From: an uncultured Lachnospiraceae bacterium
GTDB taxonomy: Bacteria > Bacillota > Clostridia > Lachnospirales > Lachnospiraceae
DNA length: 16,155 nt
Reading direction: 5' to 3'
Assembly (NCBI GenBank): GCA_902803635.1
Contig: CADCQU010000069.1
Span: 1-16,155 of the forward strand
In this document: positions 1 through 15,810 of the stretch, piece by piece
How the letters are laid out: the number at the start of each line of letters is the position of its first letter
How positions within the stretch are numbered: the first letter of the stretch is position 1
The notes under the pieces: model-generated
What the model saw: the letters and a program-made list of their open reading frames with translations, nothing else
What the model was told of the DNA's origin: nothing
The model's database searches: none
Translations under genes and position numbers: made by a program

Positions 1-303
1 AGTGAGAATCTTTATTGAAAAACTACCCGTGCAATGGAAAATGCGCTTCATGCGTCAAAGTGAATCCTGATGATGTACAGATATAAATGGATAATTCATA
101 TCCATTGTCGAGAGCAACGAATTCAGGCAGCGAAGTTTAAGAAACTGAACATTATGATTCCAAACAGAGGGTTTCAGGAACAGTTTGCTGCCTTCGTCGC
201 TCAGGCCGACAAATCAAAAGTAGTCGCTCAAAGTGCCTTGGGATAGATTCAAGAACTATACGAAAAAATAGTTTTTCAATATTACAATATGTCTATTATA
301 TAG
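1..303 (+). pseudogene. hsdS: Remnant of type I restriction specificity subunit, C-terminal end
   Basis: This is a broken coding relic. From about 106 to 243 one frame reads a typical HsdS C-terminal helix region, including LNIMIPNRGFQEQFAAFVAQ followed by ADKSKVVAQSALG. HsdS proteins commonly end with a segment of the form 'LPPLELQNQFAAFVQQVDKSK', which is the basis for the call. That frame meets TAG at 244-246 but then continues sensibly to TAG at 301-303 (IQELYEKIVFQYYN). Upstream, a different frame (about 6-83) reads KNYPCNGKCASCVKVNPDDVQI-like sequence, so there is at least one frame change between about 64 and 86 as well as the internal amber codon. A start codon and target-recognition domains are not in the window. 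An intact HsdR gene lies 1 kb downstream, which supports a former hsdS-hsdR arrangement. The identification rests on motif resemblance, not an alignment. Confidence 0.6.
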
Positions 304-501
304 ATTATAGAAACAAGCGAGCTGTTTTCGGGAATAAATCTAGTGAAATCTATAGTTAAAGAAAATCGAGTAAGCGTAAGAGTACGCACACAACTTGTTG
401 ATAGCGATGAGTTGTCAAATATCTATTGCTATTGATAAAGGGGTTATATATACTGGAGATAGCTTGGTACATTGATTTATAGAAACAAAACTTGCTACTA
501 A
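304..501. other. AT-rich spacer without a recognisable gene
   Basis: No convincing coding sequence, RNA gene or promoter is visible. There is a weak potential fold between the GATAGCGAT region (about 402) and ATTGCTATT (about 425), and two similar 14-15-bp words (303-316 and 474-488). Neither is strong enough to name. The stretch separates the hsdS relic from the inverted-repeat-bracketed DUF559 unit and may be further decayed restriction-locus sequence. Confidence 0.4.
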
Positions 502-545
502 CTCCCCCTCCGGGGGAGCTGTCGGCATAGCCGACTGAGAGGGGG
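502..545 (-). repeat. Two-hairpin repeat, inverted copy (left end of DUF559 unit)
   Basis: Read on the minus strand this copy has the same layout as the other copies: CCCCTCTCA, a GTCGGC/GCCGAC stem (loop TAT), then a CTCCCCC/GGGGGAG stem (loop GGA). It matches the plus-strand copy at 977-1019 at about 39 of 43 positions, and most differences are in the loops. On the plus strand its last bases (GAGAGGGGG, 537-545) form the apparent ribosome binding site for the DUF559 gene starting at 550. Confidence 0.85.
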
Positions 546-549
546 AAAT

Positions 550-927
550 ATGCTTCCAAGGAATAAGGAGATGCTTGGGAATGCAAAGCAGCTACGGCGG
601 GAAATGACGGCTGAGGAGAGAAAGCTCTGGTATCTGTTTTTGAAAAACTATCCCGTGAAAATATATAAACAAAGAATCATTGGTTCGTATATTGTTGATT
701 TCTATTGCCACGCTGCGAAGCTTGTGATTGAGTTGGATGGGTCGCAGCATTTTGAGGAGAAGGGGATAGCTTATGATGCAAGAAGGACAGATTTTTTGAA
801 GGAGCAGGGGATTTCGGTGCTGCGGTTTACGAATTTGGAAGTTGACCGGGAGTTTGAGGTTGTTTGTGAGGCGATTCATAATGAAATACAGGGGAGGTTG
901 GGGAGGACAGTATCTTTCCGGAGATGA
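550..927 (+). CDS. DUF559 endonuclease-domain protein (Vsr/PD-(D/E)XK-like)
   Basis: This 125-aa protein fills a normal single DUF559 domain. Residues 10-35 give the usual lead-in (AKQLRREMTAEERKLWYLFL). The core is KQRIIGSYIVDFYCH (40-54) followed by LVIELDGSQH (58-67), which supplies D50, E61, D63 and H67 as the likely metal/catalytic cluster. A conserved LRFTNLEV strand follows. The family is related to Vsr mismatch endonucleases, but its biological substrate is not established. The ATG at 550 is chosen because GAGAGGGGG at 537-545 is a good Shine-Dalgarno; that sequence is the end of the left repeat. An inverted copy of the same repeat begins 49 bp past the stop, so the gene sits inside an inverted-repeat bracket. 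There is no sign of frameshift or truncation. The family call is confident; the role is unknown, possibly tied to the repeats. Confidence 0.9.
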   Translation: MLPRNKEMLGNAKQLRREMTAEERKLWYLFLKNYPVKIYKQRIIGSYIVDFYCHAAKLVIELDGSQHFEEKGIAYDARRTDFLKEQGISVLRFTNLEVDREFEVVCEAIHNEIQGRLGRTVSFRR

Positions 928-976
928 TGGGTGACTGTCGTTATTCCTCTCATTTCGTAGATGCTGTAGGTCTGCA

Positions 977-1019
977 CCCCTCTCAGTCGGCTTCGCCGAC
1001 AGCTCCCCCTTAGGGGGAG
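977..1019 (+). repeat. Two-hairpin repeat, copy 2 (right end of DUF559 unit)
   Basis: Hairpin one is GTCGGC-TTC-GCCGAC and hairpin two is GCTCCCCC-TTA-GGGGGAGC, preceded by CCCCTCTCA and followed by CCAAGAGGAGC. It is inverted relative to the copy at 502-545, so the pair encloses the DUF559 gene. Confidence 0.9.
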
Positions 1020-1136
1020 CCAAGAGGAGCGTCTATATGTCTCTCGATTAAAGATTGACTTTTGAGCTGATTTCTTTTGTCTTAATTTGTACGTCTGTAC
1101 TTACTTATCTCATTCCGTAGATGCTGTAGGTCTGCA

Positions 1137-1179
1137 CCCCTCTCAGTCGGCTTCGCCGACAGCTCCCCCTAAGGGGGAG
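1137..1179 (+). repeat. Two-hairpin repeat, copy 3
   Basis: The core is identical to the copy at 977-1019 except that the second loop is TAA instead of TTA. It has the same upstream lead (about 1111-1134) and the same CCAAGAGGAGC tail. It is part of the 160-bp direct duplication upstream of hsdR. Confidence 0.9.
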
Positions 1180-1242
1180 CCAAGAGGAGCTTCGTTATGT
1201 CTCTCGCTTTAAGATTGACTTTTTCAGAGATTTCGTTTTCCT

Positions 1243-1294
1243 CGAAAATGGCTTATGAGGTTCGGTTACGAAAATGGCTTATGAGGTTCGGTTA
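1243..1294 (+). repeat. Perfect 26-bp tandem duplication ending at the hsdR start codon
   Basis: Two identical 26-bp units (1243-1268 and 1269-1294) each carry ATGGCTTATGAGGTTCGG. The last base of the second unit is the A of the hsdR ATG. The GAGG within the second unit is the likely ribosome binding site, 7 nt before the ATG. The first unit ends in TTA followed by CG, so it has the same ribosome binding site but ACG where the start would be. An ATG in the first unit opens a short overlapping reading frame (1248-1307). Confidence 0.9.
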
Positions 1295-4200
1295 TGACGA
1301 ATTTTGACTGTTTTGCGAATGTACGGGAGTTTTCTTCTTTTGTTGAACCGGCGGTGGCGGCGGAGAGGATTTATCGGATTGATGCTGCGGCGTCGGTGAT
1401 GAATTGTCGGCGGGCGATGGAGGCGGCGATTAAGTGGATGTATTCGGTGGATGGGGCTTTGGTGATGCCTTATCAGGACACGCTGGCGTGTCTCATGAAT
1501 ACGGATGAGTTCCGGCAGATTGTGGATGTAGATTTGTACCGGAGGATGGACTTTATTCGAAAGGTTGGGAATTCAGCCGCTCATGGCGGGAGGACGATTT
1601 CGAAGGAACAGGCGGCTCTTTGTCTTGAGAATCTTTTTATCTTCCTTGATTTCGTGGCTTACTGTTACTCGGAGAACTATGAGGAGCGGGAGTTTGATGC
1701 CAGCCTTTTAGAGAAGAAGCCCGCTTCAACCGTGATCCTGAATCAAGAACGCCAGAAAGTTAGGGAAGCAACGCTTGCGTTAGAAGAAAGCGAGAAGAAG
1801 CGTAAAGAACTGGAAGCGGCGGTTGCAAATGCAGAAAGAGAGAGAAGCAAAAAAGAAGAGGCTGTCGCTGCCGCATTAGCGGAAAGTGAAAGGAAGCAGC
1901 GGGAGCTTGCGGCGGCGGTTGCATTTGCCGAAAAAGAAAGGACTAAGCAGGAGCGGGAGAGTGTCGCGGCAAATGCGGAGATGGAGCGGCGGCTGGCGGA
2001 TATGATGCGGGAGAACGCCTCGCTTCGGGAGGAGCTGACGGCTAAGCAGGAAGAGCTGGCAGCCCGGAGGGAGGAGCTGACAGCCCGGCGGAGGGAGCAG
2101 CAGGCGACGTATGTTCCGAAGCCGCTGGATCTTTCCGAGTACGAGACTCGGAAGCTCTACATCGATGCGATGCTGGAGGATGCCGGCTGGGTACGCGGGA
2201 AGGACTGGCTGGAGGAGTATGCGGTCATGGGGATGCCGAACCCCTCCGGGACTGGCTCGGTGGACTATGCGCTTTTGGGCGACGACGGGCGGGTGCTGGC
2301 GGTCGTCGAGGCGAAGCGCACCTGCGCAGACGTGGTGCGGGGGCGGCAGCAGGCGAAGCTGTATGCGGATGCAATCGAGCAAAAACAGGGCCGCCGTCCG
2401 GTTGTCTTTATGACAAATGGCTTCGATACGCGCATTGTGGATAGCCAATATCCCGAGCGGAAAATATCGACGATTTACTCAAAACGCGATCTTGAAAAGC
2501 TTTTCAACCTGCAGCGGATGCGGACGAGCCTTGCAAATGTCTCGATTGACAAATCGATCGTGAATCGATACTACCAGGAGGCCGCAATTCGGGCGGTCTG
2601 TGAGAGCTTTGGGAAGAAGAACCGTCGGAAAGCCCTTCTCGTGATGGCAACCGGTTCAGGCAAGACGCGGACGGTCATCGCGCTTGTGAAGGTGCTTCTG
2701 GAGCATGGCTGGATTCGGAATATTCTCTTCCTTGCGGACAGGAATTCCCTGGTCACGCAGGCGAAGCGGAGCTTCGTGAACCTCCTGCCGGACCTTTCGG
2801 TCACAAATCTCTGCGAGGAGAAAGACAATTTTGCCGCGCACGGGGTGTTTTCGACCTATCAGACGATGATGAACTGCATCGATGTCGTTCGCGACGAGGA
2901 GGGGAAGCTCTTTTCCTGCGGCCACTTTGACCTTCTGATTTGCGACGAGGCTCATCGCTCGATTTACAATAAATATCGCGACATTTTCAACTATTTTGAC
3001 GCCCCGCTCATCGGCCTGACCGCAACCCCGAAAGACGAGATTGACAAGAACACCTACTCTGTGTTTGAATTGGAGAGCGGCGTGCCGACCTACGGCTACG
3101 AGCTGGCGCAGGCCGTGAAGGATGGATTTCTGGTCGATTTTCTGTCCGTGGAAACGAAGCTGAAGTTCCTGACGGAGGGCATCGTCTACGACGACCTTTC
3201 CGAGGAAGACAAGGCGGCCTACGAGGAGACATTTGAGACGGAGGACGGGCATTTGCCAGAACGGATTGAACCGTCGGCTCTCAACGAGTGGATTTTTAAC
3301 GAGGATACTATCCGCGAGGTTCTTTCCATTCTCATGGCAAATGGCCTTCGCGTTGATTTTGGGGCGCGACTTGGGAAGACGATTCTTTTTGCAAGAAACC
3401 ATAAGCATGCGGAGAAGATTCTGGAGATTTTTAATAAAGAATATCCGCATCTTGTCGATTTTGCGAAGGTGATTGACAACCGGACTGCCTACGCGCAGAG
3501 CGCGATTGACGATTTTTCCGACCCGAGGAAGCTCCCACAGCTTGCGATTTCCGTTGACATGCTGGACACCGGCATTGACGTGCCGGAGGTGCTAAACCTC
3601 GTCTTTTTCAAGCGTGTCATGAGCAAGGCGAAGTTTTGGCAAATGATTGGCCGCGGGACGCGGCTCTGTCCAGGGCTTTTGGACGGGAAGGATAAAGAGA
3701 AATTCTATATCTTTGACTTCTGTGGGAATTTTGAATTTTTCCGCATGGAGAAAGGGAAGGCCTCGCCAAATGCGATCCCCTTGCAGGGGGCACTTTTCAG
3801 CCTGCAATTTGACATGGCCTATAAGCTGCAGGCTCTGCAATACCAGACGGAGCGACTCATTGCGTACCGGGATCAGCTCGTCGGGCATTTGTCTGGGAAA
3901 GTACGTGAACTCAACCGGGAAAATTTCGCCGTACGGCAGCATTTGCGAGCCGTGGACCAATATGCCACGCCGGAGGGCTATCAGGCACTGACCTACGAGG
4001 ACACGTTGCTCGTGCGGGAGGAGCTTTGCCCGCTGATCGAGCCGGAGAAGGACGATGCGATGGCTCTACGCTTCGACGCGCTTATCTATGGAATCGAGCT
4101 TGCGCAGCTCGATGGTAAGAAAAACGGGCGGGCGCGGAAGGAGCTTCTAAGGAAGGTGGCGGGCGTGGCTGAGGTGGCCAACATTCCGGAGATTCGGGCG

Positions 4201-4863
4201 CAGGCGGGGCTGATTGAGAAGATTCTGCATACCGATTATTTGGAAAATGCGGATATGGATGATCTGGAGCACATTCGGAAGGCTCTCAGGGATCTGATGA
4301 AGTACCTGCCGAAGGAGCGGAAGGTATTTGAGACAAATCTTGCGGACGAGGTTCTCTCGATGGAGTGGAAGGAGTCCGAGCTGGAAAATGACGACCTTAG
4401 AAACTACAAGGCGAAGGCGGAATTCTACGTGCGGCAGCATTTGGACAATGTGGCGATTGCGAAGCTGCGGACGAACCAACCGCTTACCGAGGTAGACCTG
4501 CGCACGCTGGAGGAGATTTTGTGGAGCGAGGTCGGAACACGGGAGGAGTACGAGGCCGAGATAGGGAAAAAGCCGCTTGGGGAGTTCGTCCGCGAGATTG
4601 TCGGACTCGATATGGGCGCGGCGAAGGAGGCCTTTGCGGAGTATCTGAACGAGGCGAATTTTGATAGCCGGCAGATTTATTTTGTGAACCAGATTGTGGA
4701 GTATATTGTACAGAACGGGATGCTGCGGGATCTGTCGGTGCTGCAGGAGGCACCCTTTACGGATCAGGGGAGCGTCGCGGAGCTGTTTGGAGGGGATATT
4801 ATCGCCTGGCAGGGGATTCGAAGCGCAATCGAGCGCGTCAATTCGAATGCGGGAGCGGCGTGA
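1294..4863 (+). CDS. hsdR: Type I restriction enzyme R subunit (EcoKI-like) with DUF4145-like N-terminus
   Basis: This 1189-aa protein is the ATP-driven translocase/nuclease subunit of a type I restriction system. An N-terminal DUF4145-like helical domain (about 12-130) is followed by a long charged coiled coil (about 148-270) with internally repeated ~33-residue segments. The HSDR_N nuclease has D324 and E339-A340-K341 as the D...ExK site. The SF2 helicase motor shows TGSGKT (453-458), DEAH (551-554), TATP (576-579) and QMIGRGTR (783-790). The rest matches an EcoEI-type C-terminal region that docks to the methylase complex. The ATG at 1294 has GAGG 7 nt upstream. Only a broken hsdS is visible upstream and no hsdM is in the window, so a functional enzyme would need M and S elsewhere. 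The reading frame and all motor and nuclease residues look intact. The first ~150 codons look compositionally plainer than the rest (TTT/GAT/GCG-rich). Confidence 0.96.
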   Translation: MTNFDCFANVREFSSFVEPAVAAERIYRIDAAASVMNCRRAMEAAIKWMYSVDGALVMPYQDTLACLMNTDEFRQIVDVDLYRRMDFIRKVGNSAAHGGRTISKEQAALCLENLFIFLDFVAYCYSENYEEREFDASLLEKKPASTVILNQERQKVREATLALEESEKKRKELEAAVANAERERSKKEEAVAAALAESERKQRELAAAVAFAEKERTKQERESVAANAEMERRLADMMRENASLREELTAKQEELAARREELTARRREQQATYVPKPLDLSEYETRKLYIDAMLEDAGWVRGKDWLEEYAVMGMPNPSGTGSVDYALLGDDGRVLAVVEAKRTCADVVRGRQQAKLYADAIEQKQGRRPVVFMTNGFDTRIVDSQYPERKISTIYSKRDLEKLFNLQRMRTSLANVSIDKSIVNRYYQEAAIRAVCESFGKKNRRKALLVMATGSGKTRTVIALVKVLLEHGWIRNILFLADRNSLVTQAKRSFVNLLPDLSVTNLCEEKDNFAAHGVFSTYQTMMNCIDVVRDEEGKLFSCGHFDLLICDEAHRSIYNKYRDIFNYFDAPLIGLTATPKDEIDKNTYSVFELESGVPTYGYELAQAVKDGFLVDFLSVETKLKFLTEGIVYDDLSEEDKAAYEETFETEDGHLPERIEPSALNEWIFNEDTIREVLSILMANGLRVDFGARLGKTILFARNHKHAEKILEIFNKEYPHLVDFAKVIDNRTAYAQSAIDDFSDPRKLPQLAISVDMLDTGIDVPEVLNLVFFKRVMSKAKFWQMIGRGTRLCPGLLDGKDKEKFYIFDFCGNFEFFRMEKGKASPNAIPLQGALFSLQFDMAYKLQALQYQTERLIAYRDQLVGHLSGKVRELNRENFAVRQHLRAVDQYATPEGYQALTYEDTLLVREELCPLIEPEKDDAMALRFDALIYGIELAQLDGKKNGRARKELLRKVAGVAEVANIPEIRAQAGLIEKILHTDYLENADMDDLEHIRKALRDLMKYLPKERKVFETNLADEVLSMEWKESELENDDLRNYKAKAEFYVRQHLDNVAIAKLRTNQPLTEVDLRTLEEILWSEVGTREEYEAEIGKKPLGEFVREIVGLDMGAAKEAFAEYLNEANFDSRQIYFVNQIVEYIVQNGMLRDLSVLQEAPFTDQGSVAELFGGDIIAWQGIRSAIERVNSNAGAA

Positions 4864-4866
4864 GGC

Positions 4867-4916
4867 CCCTCTCCGTCACCGCCTCCGGCGGTGCCACCTC
4901 CCCCTTGAGGGGGAGG
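4867..4916 (+). repeat. Divergent two-hairpin repeat abutting the hsdR stop codon
   Basis: The layout matches the other copies but both stems differ: CACCGCC-TCC-GGCGGTG (4877-4893) and CCTCCCCC-TTGA-GGGGGAGG (4897-4916). The leading CCCCTCTC and trailing CAAGAGGAGC are conserved. Stem changes are matched on the opposite arm, so pairing is kept while sequence changes. It begins 4 bp after the hsdR stop and would lie in the 3' end of that transcript. It lacks a T-run, so it is not a classical terminator. Confidence 0.85.
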
Positions 4917-4927
4917 CAAGAGGAGCG

Positions 4928-4980
4928 GCGAGCATTTGATCGCTTTAGAGTAAGAAAGGAGCAGCGACCATTTGGTCGCT
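4928..4980 (+). repeat. Pair of related small hairpins upstream of the aminopeptidase gene
   Basis: GCGAGC-ATTT-GATCGC (4928-4943, imperfect) and AGCGACC-ATTT-GGTCGCT (4963-4980, perfect 7-bp stem) share the form GGAGC-n-GCGA-n-CATTTG-n-TCGC, with both starting in a GGAGC word. There is no T-run after either. They sit in the leader of the aminopeptidase gene. A weak TATATT at 4993-4998 could be a -10 element, but no good -35 is present. Confidence 0.6.
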
Positions 4981-5014
4981 ATCACTGCACTATATATTAA
5001 GGAGGAGAATATAC

Positions 5015-6241
5015 ATGATCACAAAAGAACTTTTACAAAAATATGCGGAACTGATCGTGCGCACGGGCGCGAATGTGCAGCCGGGGCAGGTGGTGCAGCT
5101 TGCCATCCCGGTCGAGCAGCATGCATTTGCCGGAATTATAACGGAGGAGTGCTACAAGGCCGGGGCGCGGAAGGTGAACGTTGACTGGATGAGCGATACG
5201 CTAAGCCGCATGGATTTCCTGTACGCGGATACGGAGGTGCTTTCCGAGGTGCTTCCCTGGCAGGAAGCGAAGATGCAGCAAATGGTGGAGGACCTGCCCT
5301 GCCGAATCGTGATCCTGTCGGATGACCCGGATGCGCTGGCCGGGGTGGACCCGCAGAAGATTTCTTCCGTCATGCAGAGCCGTTCAAAGGTCATGAAGCC
5401 CTACCGCAACGCGATTGACGGGAAGCACCAGTGGCTCGTCGCGGGTTATCCTAGCGAGAAGTGGGCTTCCAAATGCTTCCCGGACGATCCGAACGCGGTC
5501 GAGAAGCTCTGGGAGGCAATCCTGACCACCGTGCGCGTCCGTGAGGACAACGACCCGGTGGCGGAGTGGAAGGCCCACGTGGAGTTCCTGAATAAAAAGA
5601 TGGACTGGCTCAACGAGCAGGCCTTCACGTCGCTCCGCTATAAGAGTGCGAACGGGACCGATTTTACGGTGGATCTCATCCCCGGCGCAAAGTGGGAGGG
5701 GGCCGGAAATACGAATCCGAAAAATGGCGTCTTCTACATCCCGAACCTCCCGACGGAGGAGATTTTCACCTCCCCGCTCGCCGGCAAATGCGATGGCAGG
5801 CTGGTTTCGGTAAAGCCGCTTTCGTGGAACAGCCAGCTCATCGAGGACTTCGAGATTACATTTGCCGATGGAATGGCCGTCTCGTGCAATGCCCGAAAGG
5901 GGCAGGAGCTTCTGGAGCAGATGCTGCAAATGGACGAGGGCGCGGCGATGCTGGGCGAGGTGGCCCTGGTGCCGAAGGAGAGCCCGGTGAACCAGTGCGG
6001 CTTCCTTTTCTATGAGACTCTATTTGACGAAAATGCATGCTGCCACTTCGCGCTCGGGGCGGGCTTCAAGGAAGTTCTTCCGGGAGGGGATGAACTTTCG
6101 ACGGAGGAGGCGAAGGAACAGGGAATCAATGATTCCATCATCCATGTGGATTTCATGGTCGGGGCGGACGACCTCTCGATTGACGGCGTGCGGGCAGATG
6201 GAAGTACCACTGCCATATTCCGAAACGGGACATGGGCGTGA
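5015..6241 (+). CDS. M29-family aminopeptidase (AmpS/PepS/AmpT type)
   Basis: At 408 aa this is full length for peptidase family M29, cytosolic co-catalytic metal aminopeptidases that remove N-terminal residues from peptides. The N-terminus has the family's LLQKYAELIVRTGANVQPGQ signature. Likely metal ligands by motif are E248 or E249 (LPTEE), E315 (GEVAL), H344 (CCHFALG), H377 and D379 (IIHVD). The tyrosine I recall seven residues after the first histidine (H348/Y355 in the Thermus enzyme) appears to be F351 here. The ATG at 5015 follows AAGGAGG (4999-5005) at ideal spacing. There is no signal peptide. The next gene starts 26 bp after the stop, so co-transcription is likely. Family certain; specificity unknown. 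Confidence 0.93.
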   Translation: MITKELLQKYAELIVRTGANVQPGQVVQLAIPVEQHAFAGIITEECYKAGARKVNVDWMSDTLSRMDFLYADTEVLSEVLPWQEAKMQQMVEDLPCRIVILSDDPDALAGVDPQKISSVMQSRSKVMKPYRNAIDGKHQWLVAGYPSEKWASKCFPDDPNAVEKLWEAILTTVRVREDNDPVAEWKAHVEFLNKKMDWLNEQAFTSLRYKSANGTDFTVDLIPGAKWEGAGNTNPKNGVFYIPNLPTEEIFTSPLAGKCDGRLVSVKPLSWNSQLIEDFEITFADGMAVSCNARKGQELLEQMLQMDEGAAMLGEVALVPKESPVNQCGFLFYETLFDENACCHFALGAGFKEVLPGGDELSTEEAKEQGINDSIIHVDFMVGADDLSIDGVRADGSTTAIFRNGTWA

Positions 6242-6267
6242 AGATTGATTGTTGAGAGGTGTTTCTT

Positions 6268-9200
6268 ATGCGTAGACTTAAAATTGTATTCCGTAGTTGC
6301 TATATGTCTGGCCCCTCTCAGTCGGCTTCGCCGACAGCTCCCCCTGAGGGGGAGCCAAGAAGAATGAAAACAGATATCTGCCGCAGCTATACATCTGGCC
6401 CCTCTCATTCGGCTTCGCCGACAGCTCCCCCTGAGGGGGAGCCAAGAGGTAAGAGAACTTCTGGCCGCCGCTGCTCTTGCCTCTTTTCGTTCTTAATAGC
6501 TTTGGCTTTATTCCTGATCCTTCCCACGTCGCTGCAGGCGTCGGAGGTTTTTACGGACAAATTGACGGTGGAAGATACGGGTGCGGTGAAAACGAATTAT
6601 ATCGACTGGACGGCCGAAAGAGGCGAGGGGCATCCGACGATTACGTCGGGAGCCGTCTATGCGGGCAACTCGGCGAAGGGCAGCGGGAATGGCGGGATTC
6701 AGCTGCGAAGCAAAGGCCAGTCGGGGATCATCACCACCGGTTCGGGCGGCCGGGCGAGGAAAGTCACCGTCGCGTGGGTGAACACCTACCAGAATGACGA
6801 CCGGTATCTCGCCGTTTACGGCATCAATACCAGCTATACGTCCGTGTCCAATCTCTACACAGAAGGGATGCGCGGTGACCTGCTCGCCACGTTCAGTTAT
6901 AATGAATCCTCCTTCAGTCAGGAGGATGACGTCTATTACAGCGAGATCGAGATTACGGACGATTACAGGTACATCAGCCTCCGTTCCAGCAGCGGGGCCT
7001 TGTACCTTGCCTCCGTTTCAATTGACTGGGAGGTTTCCGGCGCAAGCCGCGTGTGGGATTGGGCGGAGGATTACAACTCCGCGACCTGCACCTTTACCGA
7101 CGATTCAGGGACGCACACCGAGGAGGCGACCGTGACAAGCGAGGTCACGAAGGAACCCACCTATATCGAGGACGGGGTTTTGACCTATACCGCAGCCGTC
7201 ACCTATGACGGCGTGCTCTACCGGGATTTGCAGACAGAGCCGATCCCACACCTTGTATTTCCGGGAACCGTTCCCTATATTGACGCGAACAAAACCCCAC
7301 AGGATTCCCCCGCGGGCACCCAACTCATCACCGGCTCCGAGAGCGAGCTGACCAGCGGCTGGTATGCCGCTGCCTCGGATACCTACGTTAACAATATTCA
7401 AATCAAGGGCGATGTGAAGATCATCCTCTGTGACGGCGTTACCATCAGCGGAGCCACAACCGCCTTCCACGTCTCCGGAAGCAGCGACAAGCTGACCTTC
7501 TACGGACAGGAAAAGGACAGCGGAGCCCTCGGCAATTCTAAATCCTACACGACGGCGGACGGTAAGGGCACGATTATCGTGTACGGCGGCTCCTTCATCA
7601 ACTGCGTACTGAGCTGTGAGAATGCAATCACCGTTAACGGCGGCAAAATTGACAGCCGCAGCGATAATGCCGGCCTATACTGCAGAAACGGAACGGTGAC
7701 CTTCAACGGGGGCGAGTTTTATTCCAGCTCATCCCCCGGCGTTTACTGCCAGAAATTTGTATACAATGGCGGAAAATTCAGAGCCGACAACTCAAGAACC
7801 GGAATTGATTGCCCCGGCAAAGACGTCACGCTCAATTGGACAAGTGAGGATGACAGCTTTTATGCCTCGCAGATTGGCTACTGGCTTTTGACCGACATTT
7901 ATAACAACACGTATATTTTTGACACGATGGACGTGACCCTGAAAAAGGATTTTATCGACAAAAACGGCAAACGGTATCCCGCCGGCAAAAACAACAGCCA
8001 TGACCTGTGGTATACCACGCTCTATCCCGCTGTTGACAAATGGCAGAGCCTGCAGAACAAGATTGATGCCTCGTCAAGCGGCGACGTCATCACCTTAAAA
8101 AGCGACATCGTTGCCGGAGCCGACAACACCGCGCTTGTGGTTCCCACGGGGAAAGAAGTCCTCACCATCGATCTCAACGGCTACAAGCTCGACCGTGGTC
8201 TTGCAAATAAAGACGCCGTCGAGGGCGGCAACGTGATTACCAACCATGCCGCGGAGCTGCACATTATTGACACAAGCGACAATAAGTCAGGCCGCATCAC
8301 CGGCGGCAACAACCTCGGCAACGGCGGCGGCATACTCAACGATACAAACACGCTCGAATTGGACGGTGTGACCGTTTCGGGGAATCGGTGCAATGGCAAC
8401 GGCGGCGGGATTTGTTCGACCCACGACGTCGTCCTGCACAATTGCAAGGTGGAGAACAATACCGCGGGCGGCAACGGCGGCGGAATCTTCACCGATACCG
8501 ACACGCTCGAATTGGACGGCGTGACCGTTTCGGGGAATCGCTGCAGCGGAAGCGGAGGAGGCATTTGTGCAAGCTTCGCCATTGTCCTGCACGATTGCAA
8601 GGTGGAGAACAATGTCGCGGACGTGAACGGCGGCGGCATATTTTGCAGCAGAAACAACGTGAACAACAAGGTTCTCATTTCCGGCTTGGTGAAGGTCACA
8701 GGCAATACGAAGTCCGACGGGTCGGCAAACAATGTCTACTTTCCTGGCAGCCAGAATTTCATATATCCGACCGACCAATTGAGCTCGGACACTCTGCTTG
8801 GGATTCGTACGTCGGTCTCGGACAAAAGGATCACGGATGGCTTGCGCGGCAAGGGTACAGCTGAGAACTTTTTCAGCGATGACAAAAACTATGCGGTTTA
8901 CCTGACAAATAGTGGAGAAGCCAGACTTGCAAAGTCGTTCGTCCTTCATTTCGATGCAAATGGCGGCAGCGGCGAGATGGAGGATCTTTCGACGCTCGAT
9001 TCCACCGTCACGATGCCCACGTGCACCTTTACCCCTCCCGAGGGCATGCGTTTCAAGGCGTGGTCGGACGGGTACGGCAACGACAACATCCAGGAGGACG
9101 AGGAGGTCAATTTGTCCAATACCGCGTATGAATACACCATCTACGCAGTTTGGGCAAAGCTCTATACAATTACGGTGGAGAACGCGAAGCATGGGACGGT

Positions 9201-10290
9201 GCTTGCAAATAAGGACGAGGCCATTGCGGGAGAGCGGGTTCGTCTCGAAGCGACGCCGGACGAAGGCTACCGGCTGGACCATTTCGTCGTTACGGACGGG
9301 GATGGGAAGCGGGTGAACGTGTACAACAGCAGCTACTTCCTGATGCCGGAGGCAAACGTCACCGTATCGGCTGAATTTATAAAAGCGCAGTTATTTGCCG
9401 CGCATAGTCTGAGCCTTGATGGAGAAATCGGTGTGAACTTCTATTTGTCTCTTACGGAACAGGAGATCGCGGACGGCGCGGAGGTTGCATTTGCCTGGAC
9501 CGTCGATGGAAAGCAAAAGACGCGGGACATTTGCCTGACTGCTAAGGACAAAACCTCCAACGGTTACAGGGCGAAGTGCCCGGTCGCGGTCGCGGAAATG
9601 ACGTACGAGATTACCGCGACGCTGACACTTGGCGGGACGGTGGCCGCGACCAATACCTATTCCGCTGCAACCTATGCAAATGTAATCCTCACCGATGCGG
9701 ACTTTCGGATGCAATTCCTTGAGGAGGCAAATGCGGAGCAGTACGACAAGCTGGTCCTTCTCGTGAAGGCGATGCTCGACTACGGGACCAAGGCCCAGCT
9801 TCGCTTCGGCCGCAATACCGAGAATCTGGCAAATGGCGGCACGGACTTCTTTTCCGAGGAAGTGACGATTCCAAATCGTGCGAGCGTTATGAACGAAGGT
9901 CTCAGCGATTGTGGCCTGGAGTATGTCGGCAGCACGGTCGTCTATCTCTCGAAAACAACGCTGCGTCACTATTACAAGATTGTGGACCCCTCCAGGTTTA
10001 CCGAGGATATCCAAAACGGGATTACCTTTGACGGAGAAACGGTCACCTACGGTGAGAAAAACGGCATGATCTACTTTGACAAGGCCGATATTGCCGCTCC
10101 GGAGCTCGACACCGAGTATGTACTTAGCATCAATGGTCACGAGTATCATTACGCGGCACTGGATTACTCGTCCCTGGCCTATGCCTCGGATACCAGGCCC
10201 TATGATGAGAGCATCACAAAGCAGCTCGCCGCGGCGGTCTACCGCTACAACCAGGCGGCCGACGCCTTCTTCGATAAGGAGGGAGCCTGA
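6268..10290 (+). CDS. Large secreted beta-helix / InlB-repeat protein with repeat-encoded N-terminus
   Basis: This 1340-aa protein probably works outside the cell; its binding partner is unknown. Order: an N-terminal extension (1-61) made largely of two ~29-residue copies of SGPSxSASPTAPPEGEPR; a signal peptide (about 62-91: basic stretch, LFSFLIALALFLILP core, SLQA before S92); a beta-sandwich-like region (93-255); a small repeat region (about 260-335); a right-handed beta-helix with GG-rich turns (about 375-880), including two 51-aa repeats (692-793); two InlB/Flg_new-type repeats (891-965, 965-1037); and a C-terminal domain I recall from clostridial surface proteins (GEIGVNFYLSL, LVKAMLDYGTKAQLRFG). 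No LPXTG, SLH or dockerin is seen. ATG 6268 is preferred to GTG 6259 because GAGAGG (6254-6259) is 8 nt upstream; ATG 6304 or 6364 are alternatives. Every possible start lies before or between the repeat copies. Confidence 0.88.
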   Translation: MRRLKIVFRSCYMSGPSQSASPTAPPEGEPRRMKTDICRSYTSGPSHSASPTAPPEGEPRGKRTSGRRCSCLFSFLIALALFLILPTSLQASEVFTDKLTVEDTGAVKTNYIDWTAERGEGHPTITSGAVYAGNSAKGSGNGGIQLRSKGQSGIITTGSGGRARKVTVAWVNTYQNDDRYLAVYGINTSYTSVSNLYTEGMRGDLLATFSYNESSFSQEDDVYYSEIEITDDYRYISLRSSSGALYLASVSIDWEVSGASRVWDWAEDYNSATCTFTDDSGTHTEEATVTSEVTKEPTYIEDGVLTYTAAVTYDGVLYRDLQTEPIPHLVFPGTVPYIDANKTPQDSPAGTQLITGSESELTSGWYAAASDTYVNNIQIKGDVKIILCDGVTISGATTAFHVSGSSDKLTFYGQEKDSGALGNSKSYTTADGKGTIIVYGGSFINCVLSCENAITVNGGKIDSRSDNAGLYCRNGTVTFNGGEFYSSSSPGVYCQKFVYNGGKFRADNSRTGIDCPGKDVTLNWTSEDDSFYASQIGYWLLTDIYNNTYIFDTMDVTLKKDFIDKNGKRYPAGKNNSHDLWYTTLYPAVDKWQSLQNKIDASSSGDVITLKSDIVAGADNTALVVPTGKEVLTIDLNGYKLDRGLANKDAVEGGNVITNHAAELHIIDTSDNKSGRITGGNNLGNGGGILNDTNTLELDGVTVSGNRCNGNGGGICSTHDVVLHNCKVENNTAGGNGGGIFTDTDTLELDGVTVSGNRCSGSGGGICASFAIVLHDCKVENNVADVNGGGIFCSRNNVNNKVLISGLVKVTGNTKSDGSANNVYFPGSQNFIYPTDQLSSDTLLGIRTSVSDKRITDGLRGKGTAENFFSDDKNYAVYLTNSGEARLAKSFVLHFDANGGSGEMEDLSTLDSTVTMPTCTFTPPEGMRFKAWSDGYGNDNIQEDEEVNLSNTAYEYTIYAVWAKLYTITVENAKHGTVLANKDEAIAGERVRLEATPDEGYRLDHFVVTDGDGKRVNVYNSSYFLMPEANVTVSAEFIKAQLFAAHSLSLDGEIGVNFYLSLTEQEIADGAEVAFAWTVDGKQKTRDICLTAKDKTSNGYRAKCPVAVAEMTYEITATLTLGGTVAATNTYSAATYANVILTDADFRMQFLEEANAEQYDKLVLLVKAMLDYGTKAQLRFGRNTENLANGGTDFFSEEVTIPNRASVMNEGLSDCGLEYVGSTVVYLSKTTLRHYYKIVDPSRFTEDIQNGITFDGETVTYGEKNGMIYFDKADIAAPELDTEYVLSINGHEYHYAALDYSSLAYASDTRPYDESITKQLAAAVYRYNQAADAFFDKEGA
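6312..6354 (+). repeat. Two-hairpin repeat, copy 5, in frame inside a coding region
   Basis: The core is identical in both stems to the copies near 1 kb, with second loop TGA. It is preceded by the related lead CCGTAGTTGCTATATGTCTGG and followed by CCAAGA. In the frame of the secreted protein it encodes PSQSASPTAPPEGEP. GGGGGAG at the end (6348-6354) lies 9 nt before ATG 6364 and could act as a ribosome binding site, although it is within a stem. Confidence 0.9.
6399..6441 (+). repeat. Two-hairpin repeat, copy 6, in frame inside a coding region
   Basis: It starts exactly 87 bp (29 codons) after copy 5, so it keeps the same frame and encodes PSHSASPTAPPEGEP. The first stem has one changed base (ATTCGGC instead of AGTCGGC), which opens its outer pair; the second hairpin is intact with loop TGA. 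It is followed by CCAAGAGG and then the signal peptide codons. Confidence 0.9.
8341..8646 (+). repeat. Two tandem 153-bp (51-aa) coding repeats in the beta-helix region
   Basis: Unit 1 (8341-8493) and unit 2 (8494-8646) both encode TLELDGVTVSGNRC, then a GGGIC turn, then CKVENN and an NGGGI turn. Identity at DNA level is high in the strand-coding parts (GAATTGGACGG, GACCGTTTCGGGGAATCG, TGCAAGGTGGAGAACAAT) and lower in the turns. This is typical of rung duplication in right-handed beta-helix adhesin-like proteins. Confidence 0.85.
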
Positions 10291-10294
10291 CAAA

Positions 10295-10420
10295 ATGAAT
10301 AAGGAAAAGTACGAACGTATTGAATGGGAAGTCGTACGGTTCGAGGCGGAGGACATTCTTTCGACCTCCCCCTTCGATCCGGATGAATATGAGGATGATA
10401 TTTTGAATCAGAATGGCTAG
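10295..10420 (+). CDS. Small acidic peptide (41 aa), translationally coupled to the secreted protein
   Basis: The peptide starts MNKEKYERIEWEVVRFEAED and continues ILSTSPFDPDEYEDDILNQNG. It has a basic start, a central (E)xxVxxFxAEDIxxTS motif and a very acidic tail, with no cysteine and no membrane segment. I recall similar short Clostridia proteins carrying an F-x-A-E-D-[VI]-x-x-T-S motif, annotated only as hypothetical. The start at 10295 is fixed by an excellent AAGGAGGGAG (10276-10285) inside the end of the upstream gene, and the ATG is 4 bp after that gene's stop, so translation is likely coupled. The GNAT gene starts 27 bp downstream. The function is unknown; a chaperone, a leader-type precursor or a stand-alone factor are all possible. 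Confidence 0.8.
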   Translation: MNKEKYERIEWEVVRFEAEDILSTSPFDPDEYEDDILNQNG

Positions 10421-10447
10421 GACAAGAACATAGAAAGGACAGATACT

Positions 10448-11185
10448 ATGCATGATATTCTTTGCCGACAGATGGCGGTTGATTTTTGTTGCACGGAGGA
10501 GGCCGTCCGGGGACGGGAGAACTGCTTTACGGAGCACCAGTTTTTGGAAGGGCGGCGGAGGTTTCACGAGGGGCAGGAGTGCTACCTCAAAATCGCCGTG
10601 ATCGGCGGAAAGCTCCTATTTTGCGGACGGAAAGACATTTTGGAATGGTGCCGGGCGAACTATGCGAAGGACGGTTCGGAGTGGTTTCTGGAGGCGAAGA
10701 ACGTCCGGAGGCTCAACGACCGGGTGCACGGGGATGGCTACCGGATTTCTTTCTTGCACCCGTTCTATATCGCCGAGAAGGCCACCGAAGTCACGTACGA
10801 AGGCTATAACATTTGCTGGTACGAGAGGGAGGACATCGAACAGTTCCGGGGGGACAACCGATTTGACGAGGCCTATTCCTTCCAGGAGAGCGCGCCGGAC
10901 GTGCTCGGCATCTCGGCGGTGCGCGGCGGAGAAATCCTCGGCATGGCCGGGGCCAGCGCGGACAGCCCGGACATGTGGCAGATCGGAATCAACGTGATGC
11001 AAGGGCACGAGGGCCTTGGCATCGGCTCGACGCTGGTCTCGCTCCTTAAAAACGAGCTTTTGGCAAGGGGCAAGCTCCCCTACTACGGGACCGGCTTCGC
11101 GCACCTCGCATCCCAAAGGCTCGCCCTCTCCGCCGGCTTCCACCCTGCGTGGGTTGAGATGTCAACGGAGAAGATGGGGGGATAA
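10448..11185 (+). CDS. GNAT-family N-acetyltransferase
   Basis: This 245-aa protein has a C-terminal GNAT fold: IGINVMQGHEGLGIGSTLV (179-197) is the beta4/acetyl-CoA pyrophosphate-binding loop with Q/H-x-x-G-x-G-x-G character (G189, G191, G193), followed by the LASQRLALSAGF helix-turn near the end. The N-terminal ~140 residues (QMAVDFCCTEE, GRRRFHEGQECYLK, EWCRANYA, RRLNDR) match a clostridial GNAT subfamily that I recall as common and uncharacterised, so the acceptor cannot be named. The ATG at 10448 has GAAAGGA about 8 nt upstream. It is the last gene before the terminator at 11246-11282 and is probably co-transcribed with the 41-aa peptide gene. Because this subfamily is widespread, the neighbourhood does not prove that it acts on the peptide or the secreted protein. 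Confidence 0.88.
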   Translation: MHDILCRQMAVDFCCTEEAVRGRENCFTEHQFLEGRRRFHEGQECYLKIAVIGGKLLFCGRKDILEWCRANYAKDGSEWFLEAKNVRRLNDRVHGDGYRISFLHPFYIAEKATEVTYEGYNICWYEREDIEQFRGDNRFDEAYSFQESAPDVLGISAVRGGEILGMAGASADSPDMWQIGINVMQGHEGLGIGSTLVSLLKNELLARGKLPYYGTGFAHLASQRLALSAGFHPAWVEMSTEKMGG

Positions 11186-11245
11186 TGATCGGTGCGGGAG
11201 TCCATCCGACCTTGATGCGATTGCTACGCATATTTATAGGGAGGC

Positions 11246-11282
11246 GGCGACAGGAGATACCCTCCGTTGTCGCCTCTTTTTT
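11246..11282 (+). terminator. Rho-independent terminator after the GNAT gene
   Basis: Stem GGCGACA (11246-11252) pairs with TGTCGCC (11268-11274). An inner GGAG/CTCC extension closes the loop, and six T follow at 11277-11282. It ends the aminopeptidase-to-GNAT run. Confidence 0.85.
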
Positions 11283-11353
11283 GATATTATTTTACCATTT
11301 TGTTTCTCGCAGAAGGACATAGCTTTTAGGAAAATTTATGGGGGACCTTATTG

Positions 11354-12490
11354 ATGAGCATTCTTGAACGTATTAAAAGACGATTTTCCATACCAAAAGA
11401 CGAGAAGACATTGATCTGGCGCGAAGCATCTGCCGAATCAGATGCCTACTATCCATATTGTCCCCGGTGCGAGGCGAATCTTTCCCTACAGGAGGGATAC
11501 AGGAAAGATTTGCCGTACTGGATTTGCAAGGGATGTGGCGAGATGCTGATCAACCCTCACGTAAAAGCCGATGATAACGTTGCGTGGATTTGTGACCGTT
11601 GCGGGGCCATGCTGAACATACAGAGCGGGTTTGAAAATACGGTAGGTCGATGGAAGTGTACAGAATGCGGGTTTGTAAATGAAATAAGCCTACATGAAAT
11701 CTACGCTTCGGAGGCGGAGTATCAGGCGGATGTTCGAAATCCTTATCGGGGCTTGCCGGATGCGGACGCGCTTGCGCTTTCGTTGTATCAGGAGCTGACA
11801 CTTATCGACGGGAGGCCGGATATCCTCCTCGTGAGGCAAATGGAGACTGGAAAGCTCCGTGTCAAGAAGCTTCTTGCCACCTTCAACCGCAGTATTTATG
11901 AGCATCTCAGGGAAAATCCTGTGTCAGGAATGCCTCGCATCTATGAATTGTACGAGAGCAGGAACTGCCTGATCGTGTTGGAAGAATATATCGAAGGCCG
12001 GACGCTCACGGAAATTCTTGAAAACGGAGCTGTATCACAGGAAATGGCCATATATATCGCGCTTGCCATTTGTAAAATCCTGCATAGTCTTCAAATCCTG
12101 CCGACCCCCATCATCCACAGGGATATCAAGCCTTCCAATATTATCATCACGCCAACAAAGGAGGTTTTTCTGTTGGACATGAATGTGGCCAAATGGTATG
12201 ATCCTGACAAGAAGGACGATACCAGCTACATGGGAACGAGATACTATGCCGCGCCGGAGCAGGCCGGATATGGGCTGTCGGCATCCTCCCTTAAAACCGA
12301 CGTCTATGCGGTCGGCGTTCTAATCAATGTCATGCTCACCCGTAAGTTTCCCAAGGAGGAGGCGGCAAATGGAGCGATTTGGGAGATTATACAGAAGTGT
12401 ATCCGTTTGGATGCCGAGGAGAGGTACAGTGTTTCGGAATTGATCGAGGCTCTTTTGCATTTGCAGAAGGAGGCAAATGGAGTAAGTTAA
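11354..12490 (+). CDS. Cytosolic Hanks-type Ser/Thr protein kinase with two N-terminal zinc ribbons
   Basis: This 378-aa protein probably phosphorylates Ser/Thr on protein partners. Two zinc ribbons lead: C36-x2-C39...C58-x2-C61 and C80-x2-C83...C102-x2-C105. The kinase domain (about 150-375) keeps the ATP lysine in RVKKL (K172), the catalytic loop HRDIKPSN (D257, N262), the Mg aspartate D275 and AAPEQ at the end of the activation segment. DFG is DMN (275-277), and a normal glycine-rich loop is not visible before K172. No transmembrane segment or PASTA domain follows, unlike PknB/PrkC. ATG 11354 has GGGGGA 8 nt upstream; a TTG directly before it is the alternative. It follows a terminator and precedes the HTH-like gene by 21 bp, so the two likely form an operon. 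The zinc ribbons may be a ligand- or redox-sensing input, which is inference. Confidence 0.9.
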   Translation: MSILERIKRRFSIPKDEKTLIWREASAESDAYYPYCPRCEANLSLQEGYRKDLPYWICKGCGEMLINPHVKADDNVAWICDRCGAMLNIQSGFENTVGRWKCTECGFVNEISLHEIYASEAEYQADVRNPYRGLPDADALALSLYQELTLIDGRPDILLVRQMETGKLRVKKLLATFNRSIYEHLRENPVSGMPRIYELYESRNCLIVLEEYIEGRTLTEILENGAVSQEMAIYIALAICKILHSLQILPTPIIHRDIKPSNIIITPTKEVFLLDMNVAKWYDPDKKDDTSYMGTRYYAAPEQAGYGLSASSLKTDVYAVGVLINVMLTRKFPKEEAANGAIWEIIQKCIRLDAEERYSVSELIEALLHLQKEANGVS

Positions 12491-12511
12491 AACTCGAACT
12501 GAGGGATGAAA

Positions 12512-12970
12512 ATGGAAAAGAAACCAACGGACGAATTGAATGAGATTCTTGAAAATACAAAGCCGGAACAGGTGGGGGCGTATTTTCAGGACAATAGGAA
12601 ATTTCTGGTCGAAAACAGAAAATCGTTTTATACGTATTTTACGGATATTCTGGCCGAAAAGAGGATTAAATTGAATTACGTCTATTCCTTTGCGGACGTG
12701 TCGGAGTCGTATGGCGGGCAGATTGTGCGGATGGAAAAGCATACAAAAAATAGAGACTTGATTCTTCGGCTCTGCATCGCGGGGCATTTGTCGTTGGACG
12801 AGACAAATCGGGCCCTGAAGCTGTACGGTATGCGCGAGCTTTATGCCAAGGACAAACGGGACGTAATTCTCATTGTGGCCATCAACAACAGAATCTACCA
12901 GCTTGCTGAGATAGATGATCTGCTTCAGGAAAATGGGTTTGCCGGGCTGATAAAAAATGAGGAGAACTGA
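12512..12970 (+). CDS. Small HTH-like (degenerate XRE-type) partner of the kinase
   Basis: This 152-aa protein has an acidic helical N-terminus (1-35) and then a region with the pattern of a clostridial HTH family: a Y-x-Y-x-F-A turn, NRDLILRLCIAGHLSLDETN, then LKLYGMRELYAKDKRDVILIV and LAEIDDLLQENGF. In that family I recall 'PSRDKLLALAFGMxLSLEEtQxLLKxAGxxPLYPRxKRDAxIIFAL' near Ser/Thr kinases. The canonical recognition helix looks degenerate, so DNA binding is doubtful and it may be a kinase substrate or adaptor. ATG 12512 is preferred over ATG 12506 because GAGGG (12501-12505) directly abuts the latter and is 6 nt from the former. It ends at a clear terminator. Confidence 0.75.
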   Translation: MEKKPTDELNEILENTKPEQVGAYFQDNRKFLVENRKSFYTYFTDILAEKRIKLNYVYSFADVSESYGGQIVRMEKHTKNRDLILRLCIAGHLSLDETNRALKLYGMRELYAKDKRDVILIVAINNRIYQLAEIDDLLQENGFAGLIKNEEN

Positions 12971-12991
12971 TTCTTCTAAAGCCTCCAATTT

Positions 12992-13022
12992 CCCTACCAT
13001 TTTGGTGGGGATTCTTGTTTTT
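12992..13022 (+). terminator. Rho-independent terminator after the kinase operon
   Basis: CCCTACCA (12992-12999) pairs with TGGTGGGG (13003-13010), with one G-T wobble and a TTT loop. The tail ATTCTTGTTTTT follows. Confidence 0.8.
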
Positions 13023-13028
13023 GTGACA

Positions 13029-13037
13029 TGGTAGAAT
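13029..13037 (+). promoter_or_regulatory. Possible extended -10 promoter for the lipoprotein gene
   Basis: TGGTAGAAT has the TGn extension and five of six bases of TATAAT. No good -35 lies 16-18 bp upstream because that space is the preceding terminator. TTGTGA (13021) with TTAATA (13045) at 18-bp spacing is an alternative. The gene starts about 60 bp downstream behind AAGGAGG. Confidence 0.35.
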
Positions 13038-13095
13038 ATAGACATTAATATAAAAAGTTGCTTGAATTCACCTGTAAAAACAAGGAGGACTCGTT

Positions 13096-13815: not shown

Positions 13816-13821
13816 CGAAGG

Positions 13822-13847
13822 CAGGGGGGATAACCCCCTGTCTTTTT
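13822..13847 (+). terminator. Rho-independent terminator after the lipoprotein gene
   Basis: A perfect CAGGGGG (13822-13828) / CCCCCTG (13834-13840) stem with loop GATAA is followed by TCTTTTTC. Confidence 0.88.
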
Positions 13848-13963
13848 CAGCACCAGAATGACATACGACTGCTGCGCTCGCGACGAACAGAAGATATGTG
13901 TACATGAACTACTTGATAGCGACATTAGCAAAACATTTCCATGTTTACTTTTCATAGTCTTTC

Positions 13964-13992
13964 TTGACCTAACGATGAATACGTGGGATAAT
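13964..13992 (+). promoter_or_regulatory. Near-consensus sigma-A promoter for the 355-aa protein gene
   Basis: TTGACC (13964-13969), a 17-bp spacer, and GATAAT (13987-13992): five of six matches at each box with optimal spacing. The start codon lies about 30 bp downstream of the -10, giving a short leader with its own ribosome binding site. Confidence 0.8.
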
Positions 13993-14022
13993 AGACTATA
14001 TTCATGAAATAGAGGTGATGCA

Positions 14023-15090: not shown

Positions 15091-15128
15091 TACAAATATT
15101 TTTAGGTATCGCGAAAGTATCCATACTG

Positions 15129-15160
15129 GCGGCGACTGGGTTTTGGGCTCATGTCGTCGC
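15129..15160 (+). terminator. Possible weak terminator or hairpin after the 355-aa protein gene
   Basis: GCGGCGAC (15129-15136) pairs with GTCGTCGC (15153-15160), eight pairs with one wobble and a 16-nt loop. Only TTTA follows, so termination would be inefficient. Confidence 0.4.
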
Positions 15161-15250
15161 TTTACTCATCAGGATGACAGAAATAATGCTATATTTCATG
15201 ACATTGGATACGAATGGGGAAATCGAGAGGTTATTATTTGACTATCACCT

Positions 15251-15256: not shown

Positions 15257-15312
15257 TTTTTCTGTTTTGGCAGGTGAAGCTGGAACGCAGGTATGGGGGA
15301 AGAAAGAACGAT

Positions 15313-15765: not shown

Positions 15766-15810
15766 ATAACACTTGGGATAATTATCATCATGGATTGAGA
15801 GGTCAGAACC

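Follow-up and report, generated by a model that had tools for sequence, protein, structure and literature searches.

Short palindromic repeats fill many bacterial genomes, and RAYTs account for only some of their families. The locus described here raises the question of whether a gene for a small DUF559 nuclease and the pair of inverted repeats that encloses it belong together as a mobile unit. It lies in a contig of an uncultured Lachnospiraceae bacterium (GCA_902803635.1, CADCQU010000069.1, positions 1 to 16,155), and this whole 16,155-nt stretch is referred to below as the window. Our best explanation is that the DUF559 gene and its two inverted repeats probably form one selfish unit, REPtron-like in its working and built around an unrelated nuclease. 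The observed basis of this reading is co-occurrence beyond chance, matched ends, empty sites in relatives, near-identical units in unrelated surroundings, and repeat load.

The original prediction had placed a 125-codon DUF559 gene between a minus-strand repeat copy upstream and a plus-strand copy downstream (39/43 matching), with at least four more copies nearby. This arrangement is present at 502-1019, and the further copies are those at 1137-1179, 6312-6354, and 6399-6441, together with a subtype copy at 4866-4916. The features are, in order along the window:

161 to 246, plus strand: frame similar to the C-terminal end of HsdS, adjoining the cassette on the left (our own reading, and matching loci in congeners)
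502 to 544, minus strand: upstream two-hairpin repeat, near type a, with an outer CTTGG end that is not conserved
550 to 927, plus strand: DUF559 nuclease gene, 125 aa (PF04480, E 9.1e-32)
977 to 1019, plus strand: downstream repeat of type a, in the opposite orientation to the upstream copy (39/43 matching)
1137 to 1179, plus strand: second plus-strand type-a repeat, within a 144-nt direct duplication
1294 to 4863, plus strand: HsdR-like type I restriction subunit, adjoining the cassette on the right
4866 to 4916, plus strand: type-b repeat, after the hsdR-like gene
6312 to 6354, plus strand: type-a repeat that ORF 6259-10290 translates in frame as TAPPEGEPR close to its start
6399 to 6441, plus strand: type-a repeat, in frame near the start of the same ORF

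The two arms of the cassette (502-544, minus strand, and 977-1019, plus strand) are 43 nt each, 91% complementary, and 432 nt apart, and the sole gene between them is the DUF559 gene. The purine tail of the upstream repeat, GAGAGGGGG, occupies 537-545 and leaves 4 nt to the ATG at 550; judged by sequence and spacing, it looks like the ribosome-binding site of the gene, as had been predicted. The stop codon is separated by 49 nt from the start of the downstream repeat, and the stretch holding this repeat is covered by the 144-nt direct duplication (935-1078 and 1095-1238, 88%). ORF 6259-10290 translates its two repeats as TAPPEGEPR, and DUF559 homologues were found to run, at one end or the other, into the translated repeat as PLPLGEVAERSEDGEG and GPLSHLR or, in a Sphingomonas homologue, to end in HPNPSPEGEG. 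The statement in the original prediction that APPEGEPR-like peptides are this repeat in translation was therefore borne out, and odd protein ends such as SPTAPPEGEPR and HPNPSPEGEG are explained as translated repeats. ORF 6259-10290 itself encodes a large, secreted-looking protein in which the two translated repeats precede a signal-peptide-like stretch at the N-terminus. At 1243-1294, immediately 5′ of the hsdR-like start codon, a 26-nt unit is present in two perfect tandem copies.

The genome from which the window comes holds 46 repeat cores at no more than 1 mismatch and at least 141 matches to a covariance model of the repeat. Its assembly consists of 411 contigs, and a binning artefact, by which the DUF559 contig or the repeat-bearing contigs would come from another organism, has to be considered. 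We regard this as barely credible, because the repeats are found on dozens of the bin's contigs, the stated contamination is 1.17%, the DNA of the neighbours in the window is 69-76% identical to that of congeners, and the association of DUF559 with the repeat is independent of the window's genome.

Read on the minus strand, the repeat consists of an outer CTTGG, a hairpin whose arms are pyrimidine (L) and purine (R), a further hairpin that varies, and a purine tail T that points toward the gene. Its extremities are the purine tail (GAGAGGG type) at one side and CTTGG/CCAAG, or an A-rich stretch, at the other, and two subtypes were distinguished, a (GAGC..TGAG) and b (GAGG..GGAG). Across 67 aligned copies, nearly all of which come from DUF559 flanks, 92.1% of 917 cells were paired versus 76.5% after shuffling. 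Both sides change in 12 of 14 pairs and slid versions pair to at most 56%, a comparison that favours the drawn structure because it was drawn from sequence-aligned copies. The alignment (A2) holds 67 of the 91 listed copies, with one more window copy or fewer after near-duplicate thinning, and two downstream copies and locus L106 were left out of it. On the strength of this covariation, the repeat is predicted to be two hairpins plus a purine tail. At gathering scores, no Rfam family was found for the repeat in the window and seven further loci.

Tail T was also found to be a near mirror image of arm R. Among 71 distinct arm/tail combinations from DUF559 loci and Gemmiger stretches, the match was 86% for type a (70% when shuffled) and 78% for type b (69% when shuffled). 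Such mirroring would suit a purine-motif foldback triplex, which T may form with the hairpin, and pairing of T with L is also possible.

The repeats are arranged in a regular manner. Of 26 typed pairs of opposed neighbours in 327 kb of the window's genome, 25 were mixed, one a and one b, and all 10 pairs of same-direction neighbours were of one type. In the DUF559 loci and Gemmiger stretches, tail-to-tail pairs were mixed in 29 cases and of the same type in 11, the corresponding numbers being 22 and 10 for head-to-head pairs and 4 and 18 for same-direction pairs. The pairs that flank DUF559 genes depart from the mixed rule (12 mixed, 17 same, 3 untyped). This pairing of opposed copies that are mixed and same-direction copies that are alike is the BIME logic of REPs, and the many dispersed copies, inverted pairs, and alternating arrays in which a faces b are likewise features shared with REP/RAYT systems.

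The protein encoded between the repeats was modelled (pLDDT 87.2), and the model was compared with known structures. It gave a TM-score of 0.83 (target length) with each of 3hrl and I-Bth0305I and a weaker match with Vsr; by sequence, the DUF559 profile matched 3hrl with E 3e-20 and I-Bth0305I with E 4e-4. The DUF559 protein is therefore predicted to fold like the homing nuclease I-Bth0305I and like Vsr, in agreement with the claim that a Vsr-like nuclease fold takes the place of a tyrosine transposase. In an alignment of 36 proteins, the residues D50, E61, D63, G64, and H67 do not vary, and among the proteins of the loci described below, DFY is present in 80/81 and E-x-[DE]-G-x-x-H in 79/81. 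I-Bth0305I, which we take to represent the EDxHD class of homing endonucleases, resembles the DUF559 system in its fold and in that the gene is present or absent at otherwise matching sites. It differs in being a mobile intron protein (as described in the PDB), whereas the DUF559 gene stands free, between repeats of its own.

The association between the gene and the repeat was evaluated in 80 DUF559 loci, the best 80 of at least 566 confirmed relatives in a one-genome-per-species collection, together with the window. In 77 of these 81 loci (4 were dropped for insufficient flank) the two flanks of the DUF559 gene were aligned with each other, with the other ORFs of the same loci as controls. 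An inverted flank score of at least 20 was obtained at 44/77 DUF559 loci versus 9/748 control ORFs; direct (same-sense) alignments reached 20 at 16/77 versus 15/748. A motif defined by shape only gave a minus copy within 200 bp upstream in 51/76 DUF559 loci versus 14/719 controls, a plus copy downstream in 40/76 versus 30/719, and the full inverted pair in 30/71 versus 3/719 (the denominators 76, 76, and 71 are the loci with enough flank). Motif copies in the wrong orientation occurred at 21/76 and 11/76 DUF559 loci, and the full inverted pair was missing by motif in 41 of the 71 loci having room on both sides. In 1.18 Mb of DUF559 loci, the motif matched 241 times, compared to once in first-order Markov copies. 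The lack of any enrichment of flanking repeats at DUF559 genes had been named beforehand as what would speak against the idea; enrichment was found by alignment and by motif alike, and the REPtron-like geometry seen in the window recurs elsewhere.

A different sampling, in which loci were chosen by PF04480 alone, gave a canonical pair within 150 bp in 12/27 loci (read by eye, with the duplicates L154, L157, and L160 left out). The covariance model found 78 matches in 83 kb of these 27 loci; in L148 and L152 the pair was in the opposite sense, and in L145, L149, and L170 no repeat match was found by this model.

Gene and repeat are also interlocked at the level of the sequence. Where the upstream minus copy is present, its tail ends no more than 20 nt from the start codon in 25/53 loci, and where the downstream copy is present, the repeat overlaps the stop codon in 19/44 loci. 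Because the repeat supplies the likely ribosome-binding site and often the stop codon, the gene and its ends are not easily separated. Furthermore, the ends differ from one genome to another, yet within a unit they agree with each other: the inner 5 nt of arm L were the same at both ends in 27/32 cassettes, whereas 2000 shuffles gave a mean of 8.5 and a maximum of 16, which indicates that both ends change together. In a weak ranking against all downstream flanks, the locus's own downstream flank was the best match for the upstream flank in 12/77 loci.

The number of repeats in a genome was compared with the presence of a DUF559 gene. Among 42 genomes of the window's genus, a full DUF559 gene was found in the window's genome only, with its at least 141 repeats, whereas the other 41 congeners have 0-2 repeats each (7 with 1-2, and 34 with none). 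Weak partial PF04480 matches occur in 3 of these 41, and in 200 genomes of the window's own family (one per genus) no other strong full-length DUF559 was found. In another family, 41 of 150 genomes have DUF559 (E < 2e-9, some of them fragments). All 41 have a repeat and 36 have at least 5, whereas of the 109 DUF559-free genomes, 55 have at least 1 and 25 at least 5. The median was 22 versus 1 (Fisher p 3e-13, a value that overstates the case, as the load p values do generally, because of the relatedness of the genomes and the use of DUF559 flanks to train the model). The counts in the 150 genomes were made with stricter filters and the tallies read by eye, with per-genome numbers near 39 being lower bounds, and G247, G250, and G341, which have weak PF04480 matches, were counted as DUF559-free. 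Decayed DUF559 copies with stops are also present. Repeat number therefore tracks DUF559 presence, a check that had been proposed with the original prediction, and the link is strong but not exclusive, because 25 of the 109 DUF559-free genomes have at least 5 repeats.

These numbers bear on an alternative in which the repeats came first, spread in some other manner, and were perhaps kept as terminators, with DUF559 being a homing-type parasite that cuts the repeats and is copied into existing pairs. The homing-nuclease fold, the single DUF559 gene beside so many repeats in the window's genome, the repeat-rich genomes that are DUF559-free, and the gene-free inverted pairs that share the geometry of the cassette would all suit it. 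Repeats that had spread independently would not be expected to be so scarce in the 41 congeners that are without a full DUF559 gene, and in G201 (Pseudoflavonifractor sp. MSJ-37, locus L081; 2.6 Mb) the only two reported repeat matches are the flanks of its DUF559 gene. Repeats are also lacking at loci of Y1 transposases, the sole other enzyme family examined. We therefore consider the homing parasite to be unlikely, and a single selfish unit of gene and repeats to be the better account.

If the cassette is such a unit, then sites with and without it should be found, and they were. The Gemmiger cassette of L126 (genome G202) stands between two convergent genes and is also present in G380. At this site, 17 of 30 loci were readable across, G202 and G380 included. 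A cassette-free spacer of 60-99 bp with a terminator-like hairpin was found in 9 genomes (G375, G376, G377, G382, G386, G391, G399, G400, and G407), 5 loci have a cassette-free spacer of 149-315 bp, and one spacer of 1,099 bp was not read. At the window locus, the congeners G425 and G428 have hsdS and hsdR with neither a DUF559 gene nor a repeat between them, the spacer being taken by a different small ORF. In the loci L269 and L273 (reverse complement) of two congeners, a small coiled-coil-like ORF fills the hsdS-hsdR spacer in which the window has its DUF559 cassette. An empty site for L081 was sought in its genus, with short matches only.

Cassettes that are 81-94% identical in DNA occur in differing surroundings at 15 loci. 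A same-side flank protein is common to 5 of the 105 pairs of these loci (four at 24-29%, and one at 56% over 68 aa), a number to be read with the fact that at eight of these 15 loci one side offers hardly any flank or none; L073 and L078 share about 575 nt upstream and thus represent one site. L075 and L081 have full flanks and cassettes that are 90.5% identical, and they have no flank gene in common. Homology ends at the repeats on both sides between L079 and each of L071, L074, and L081, and at the left repeat between L063 (the contig of which ends 35 nt past the gene) and five others and between L116 and L122. Other cassette pairs share about 40-75 nt of DNA beyond the repeats, including a promoter-like stretch and a hairpin, which indicates that the moving unit is larger there and that the repeats are not always the outermost ends.

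Gene-free copies of the repeat vary between relatives as well. A 140-kb Gemmiger stretch has 14 motif matches and the matching 130 kb of G380 has 15, versus one in 120 kb of G387, and several gene-free repeat sites that are occupied in one Gemmiger genome are repeat-free in another, some with other elements. A-T-rich elements with AATAAATAATAAATA-type ends stand where a relative has a two-hairpin pair (L243-L255). A further element, distinct from the repeat, measures about 180 bp and has TTAAGGCAAYACCGCATAATTC as its inverted ends (L126:10471-10650); some Gemmiger genomes have many near-identical copies of it.

Copies were also found nested, with a type-a copy inside the second hairpin of a type-b copy, in the window's genome. 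The pattern of the right junction matched 10 times (9 of them behind a type-a copy) and that of the left junction 8 times, both being present at no fewer than 6 places. The nested type-a copy is bounded by CCCCTCTC and CCAAG and takes the place of 3-4 nt of the target. The nested copies are equally compatible with separate events and with the spread of one composite, which cannot be told apart on this evidence. At the Gemmiger site there is a possible AAAAA duplication, but it lies within an A-rich stretch, and no target-site duplication was recognised at the other sites read. The original prediction had likewise seen no target-site duplication and had called for a comparison of strains; this comparison yielded occupied and empty sites. 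The claim of a mobile unit is thus supported as far as occupied and empty sites and linkage are concerned, with the cutting by the nuclease and the mode of copying remaining inference.

Strand joining is not to be expected of a PD-(D/E)XK nuclease by itself. In the mechanism that we propose for the selfish unit, the Vsr-fold nuclease would recognise the folded repeat by its two hairpins and purine tail and would cut or nick the repeat or a target, whereupon host repair would copy the cassette as a whole, or else lone repeats and inverted pairs. These gene-free copies would then be non-autonomous descendants that fill the genome. If the nuclease does drive copying in this way, it would be a new type of mobility mechanism, and a single small protein together with a hairpin DNA of less than 50 nt would suffice to test the question.

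The similarity to REPtrons raises the alternative that the repeats are mobilised in trans by a transposase, be it a tyrosine enzyme (Y1, RAYT-type) or another kind. According to published descriptions, a RAYT gene has an inverted REP on each side (PMC2817692), REPINs are inverted REP doublets (PMC3116915), and some RAYT relatives have other terminal repeats (PMC3733652). As in REPtrons, REPINs, and BIMEs, a single gene stands between two inverted palindromic repeats here, and the repeat pairs resemble the REPINs and BIMEs of PMC3116915. The enzyme and the repeat are different: the gene encodes a PD-(D/E)XK nuclease (PF04480) rather than the HUH (Y1) tyrosine transposase of RAYT, and the repeat is made of two hairpins and a purine tail without a GTAG tag, neither this tag nor a close variant being present at the repeat ends (type b has CGTC internally, not terminally). 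A Y1 gene was present in 9 of 20 genomes tested. Nevertheless, the 23 Y1 loci of these genomes gave one weak repeat match in 69 kb, in contrast to the 78 matches in 83 kb of the 27 PF04480-chosen loci, a contrast to be read with the fact that the covariance model was trained on copies almost all of which adjoin DUF559 genes. No match to the Y1 family (PF01797) was found in the window's genome (G000) or in G201; the former is 88.65% complete, so a Y1 gene could have been missed there. Taken together, these results make a transposase acting in trans very improbable. A DDE transposon or MITE also differs from the DUF559 unit, in which no transposase, and the DUF559 gene alone, lies between the repeats.

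A further alternative is that DUF559 is a Vsr-like repair or restriction accessory, found beside restriction genes for that reason, and that the repeats are ordinary intergenic hairpins. Vsr mismatch endonuclease and Caulobacter VsrA belong to the same protein family and share the fold, and VsrA, which has a DUF559 domain, is a Vsr-like repair enzyme according to its authors, with a functional link to a cytosine methyltransferase (PMC12907096). In 8/107 loci (L064, L069, L070, L072, L080, L085, L094, and L110) as well as in the window, DUF559 is followed within 600 bp by an hsdR-like gene, and in some cyanobacterial plasmids DUF559 adjoins BREX- or methylase-type genes. However, 99 of the 107 loci have no such hsdR-like neighbour, the two ends of the cassette co-vary, the unit is also found in metabolic operons (see below), and, unlike the situation of Vsr and VsrA, no match to a methyltransferase family was found among the 11 window proteins scanned. 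An accessory role is therefore improbable. Six of the hsdR-adjoining loci (L069, L070, L072, L080, L085, and L094) have the upstream repeat only, by motif, a pattern that would fit capture of the gene by a restriction locus.

The proposed unit of DUF559 gene and repeats was also sought beyond the Clostridia, in plasmids. The sample comprised 22 DUF559 loci of 38 matching records, several of which share a genus; L366 (a large fusion), L347 (phage-labelled), and 15 further records were left out. An inverted flank score of at least 20 was obtained at 10/22 loci versus 1/99 controls, and of at least 15 at 12/22 versus 7/99. The ten loci scoring at least 20 are from Sinorhizobium meliloti, Deinococcus (four), Pseudanabaena (one), Qipengyuania, Sphingomonas (two), and Sphingobium. 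The twelve below 20, some of which carry a hairpin on one side, are from E. coli, Photobacterium, Synechocystis (two), Picosynechococcus (two), Azospirillum (two), Shinella, Sinorhizobium K101, Novosphingobium, and Sphingomonas (one). By eye, the two-hairpin form with a tail 5′ of the gene was seen in Shinella, Sphingomonas (pnt), Sphingobium, and Novosphingobium.

Several of these genes, each with an inverted flank, interrupt conserved operons: DUF559 separates sufB from sufC, pntAA from pntAB, and paaD from paaZ, and in the Deinococcus hpa operon it lies at differing points. Related records span sufB-sufC, pntAA-pntAB, or hpa genes without DUF559 (67-82% identity; from spans and feature lists). 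DUF559 was also found between yqeY and dnaG, with no scored pair. The Deinococcus case comprises three plasmids (L345, L349, and L360) with DUF559 at different points of the same hpa operon.

These loci extend to three other phyla the tie, first seen in gut Clostridia, between REP-like repeats and a second enzyme class that is unrelated to RAYT. DUF559 thereby gains a likely role, and widespread repeats of unknown origin would gain a likely driver. In the open-licence literature, at the level of titles and the beginnings of abstracts, we found no paper on a link between DUF559 and repeats (including palindromes, transposons, homing, and REP). A wider proposal, which is possible but which we hold to be somewhat doubtful, is that of a bacteria-wide class of selfish DNA in which a Vsr-fold nuclease drives the break-and-copy spread of its own two-hairpin repeat. 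The tail might fold on the mirrored arm as a purine triplex that is read by the enzyme, and DUF559 might be the missing driver of many RAYT-less REP-like repeats, the class perhaps covering orphan repeats such as CIR. The CIR repeats of Caulobacter and other alphaproteobacteria are described as abundant, with two arms and a linker and an open mobility mechanism (PMC2229807). The DUF559 repeat is also two-armed and abundant; the CIR is defined by a GANTC site, and the two were compared by description only.

Phage cargo was considered as a source of DUF559 and rejected, since 3/50,697 phage records match and viral contigs gave 5 near relatives (50-60% identity) among 14 confirmed. The five viral-labelled contigs with DUF559, which may be host DNA, have 42 repeat matches in 51 kb. 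One viral-labelled contig with DUF559 (L226:1-10339) has more than 20 repeat matches in 10 kb.
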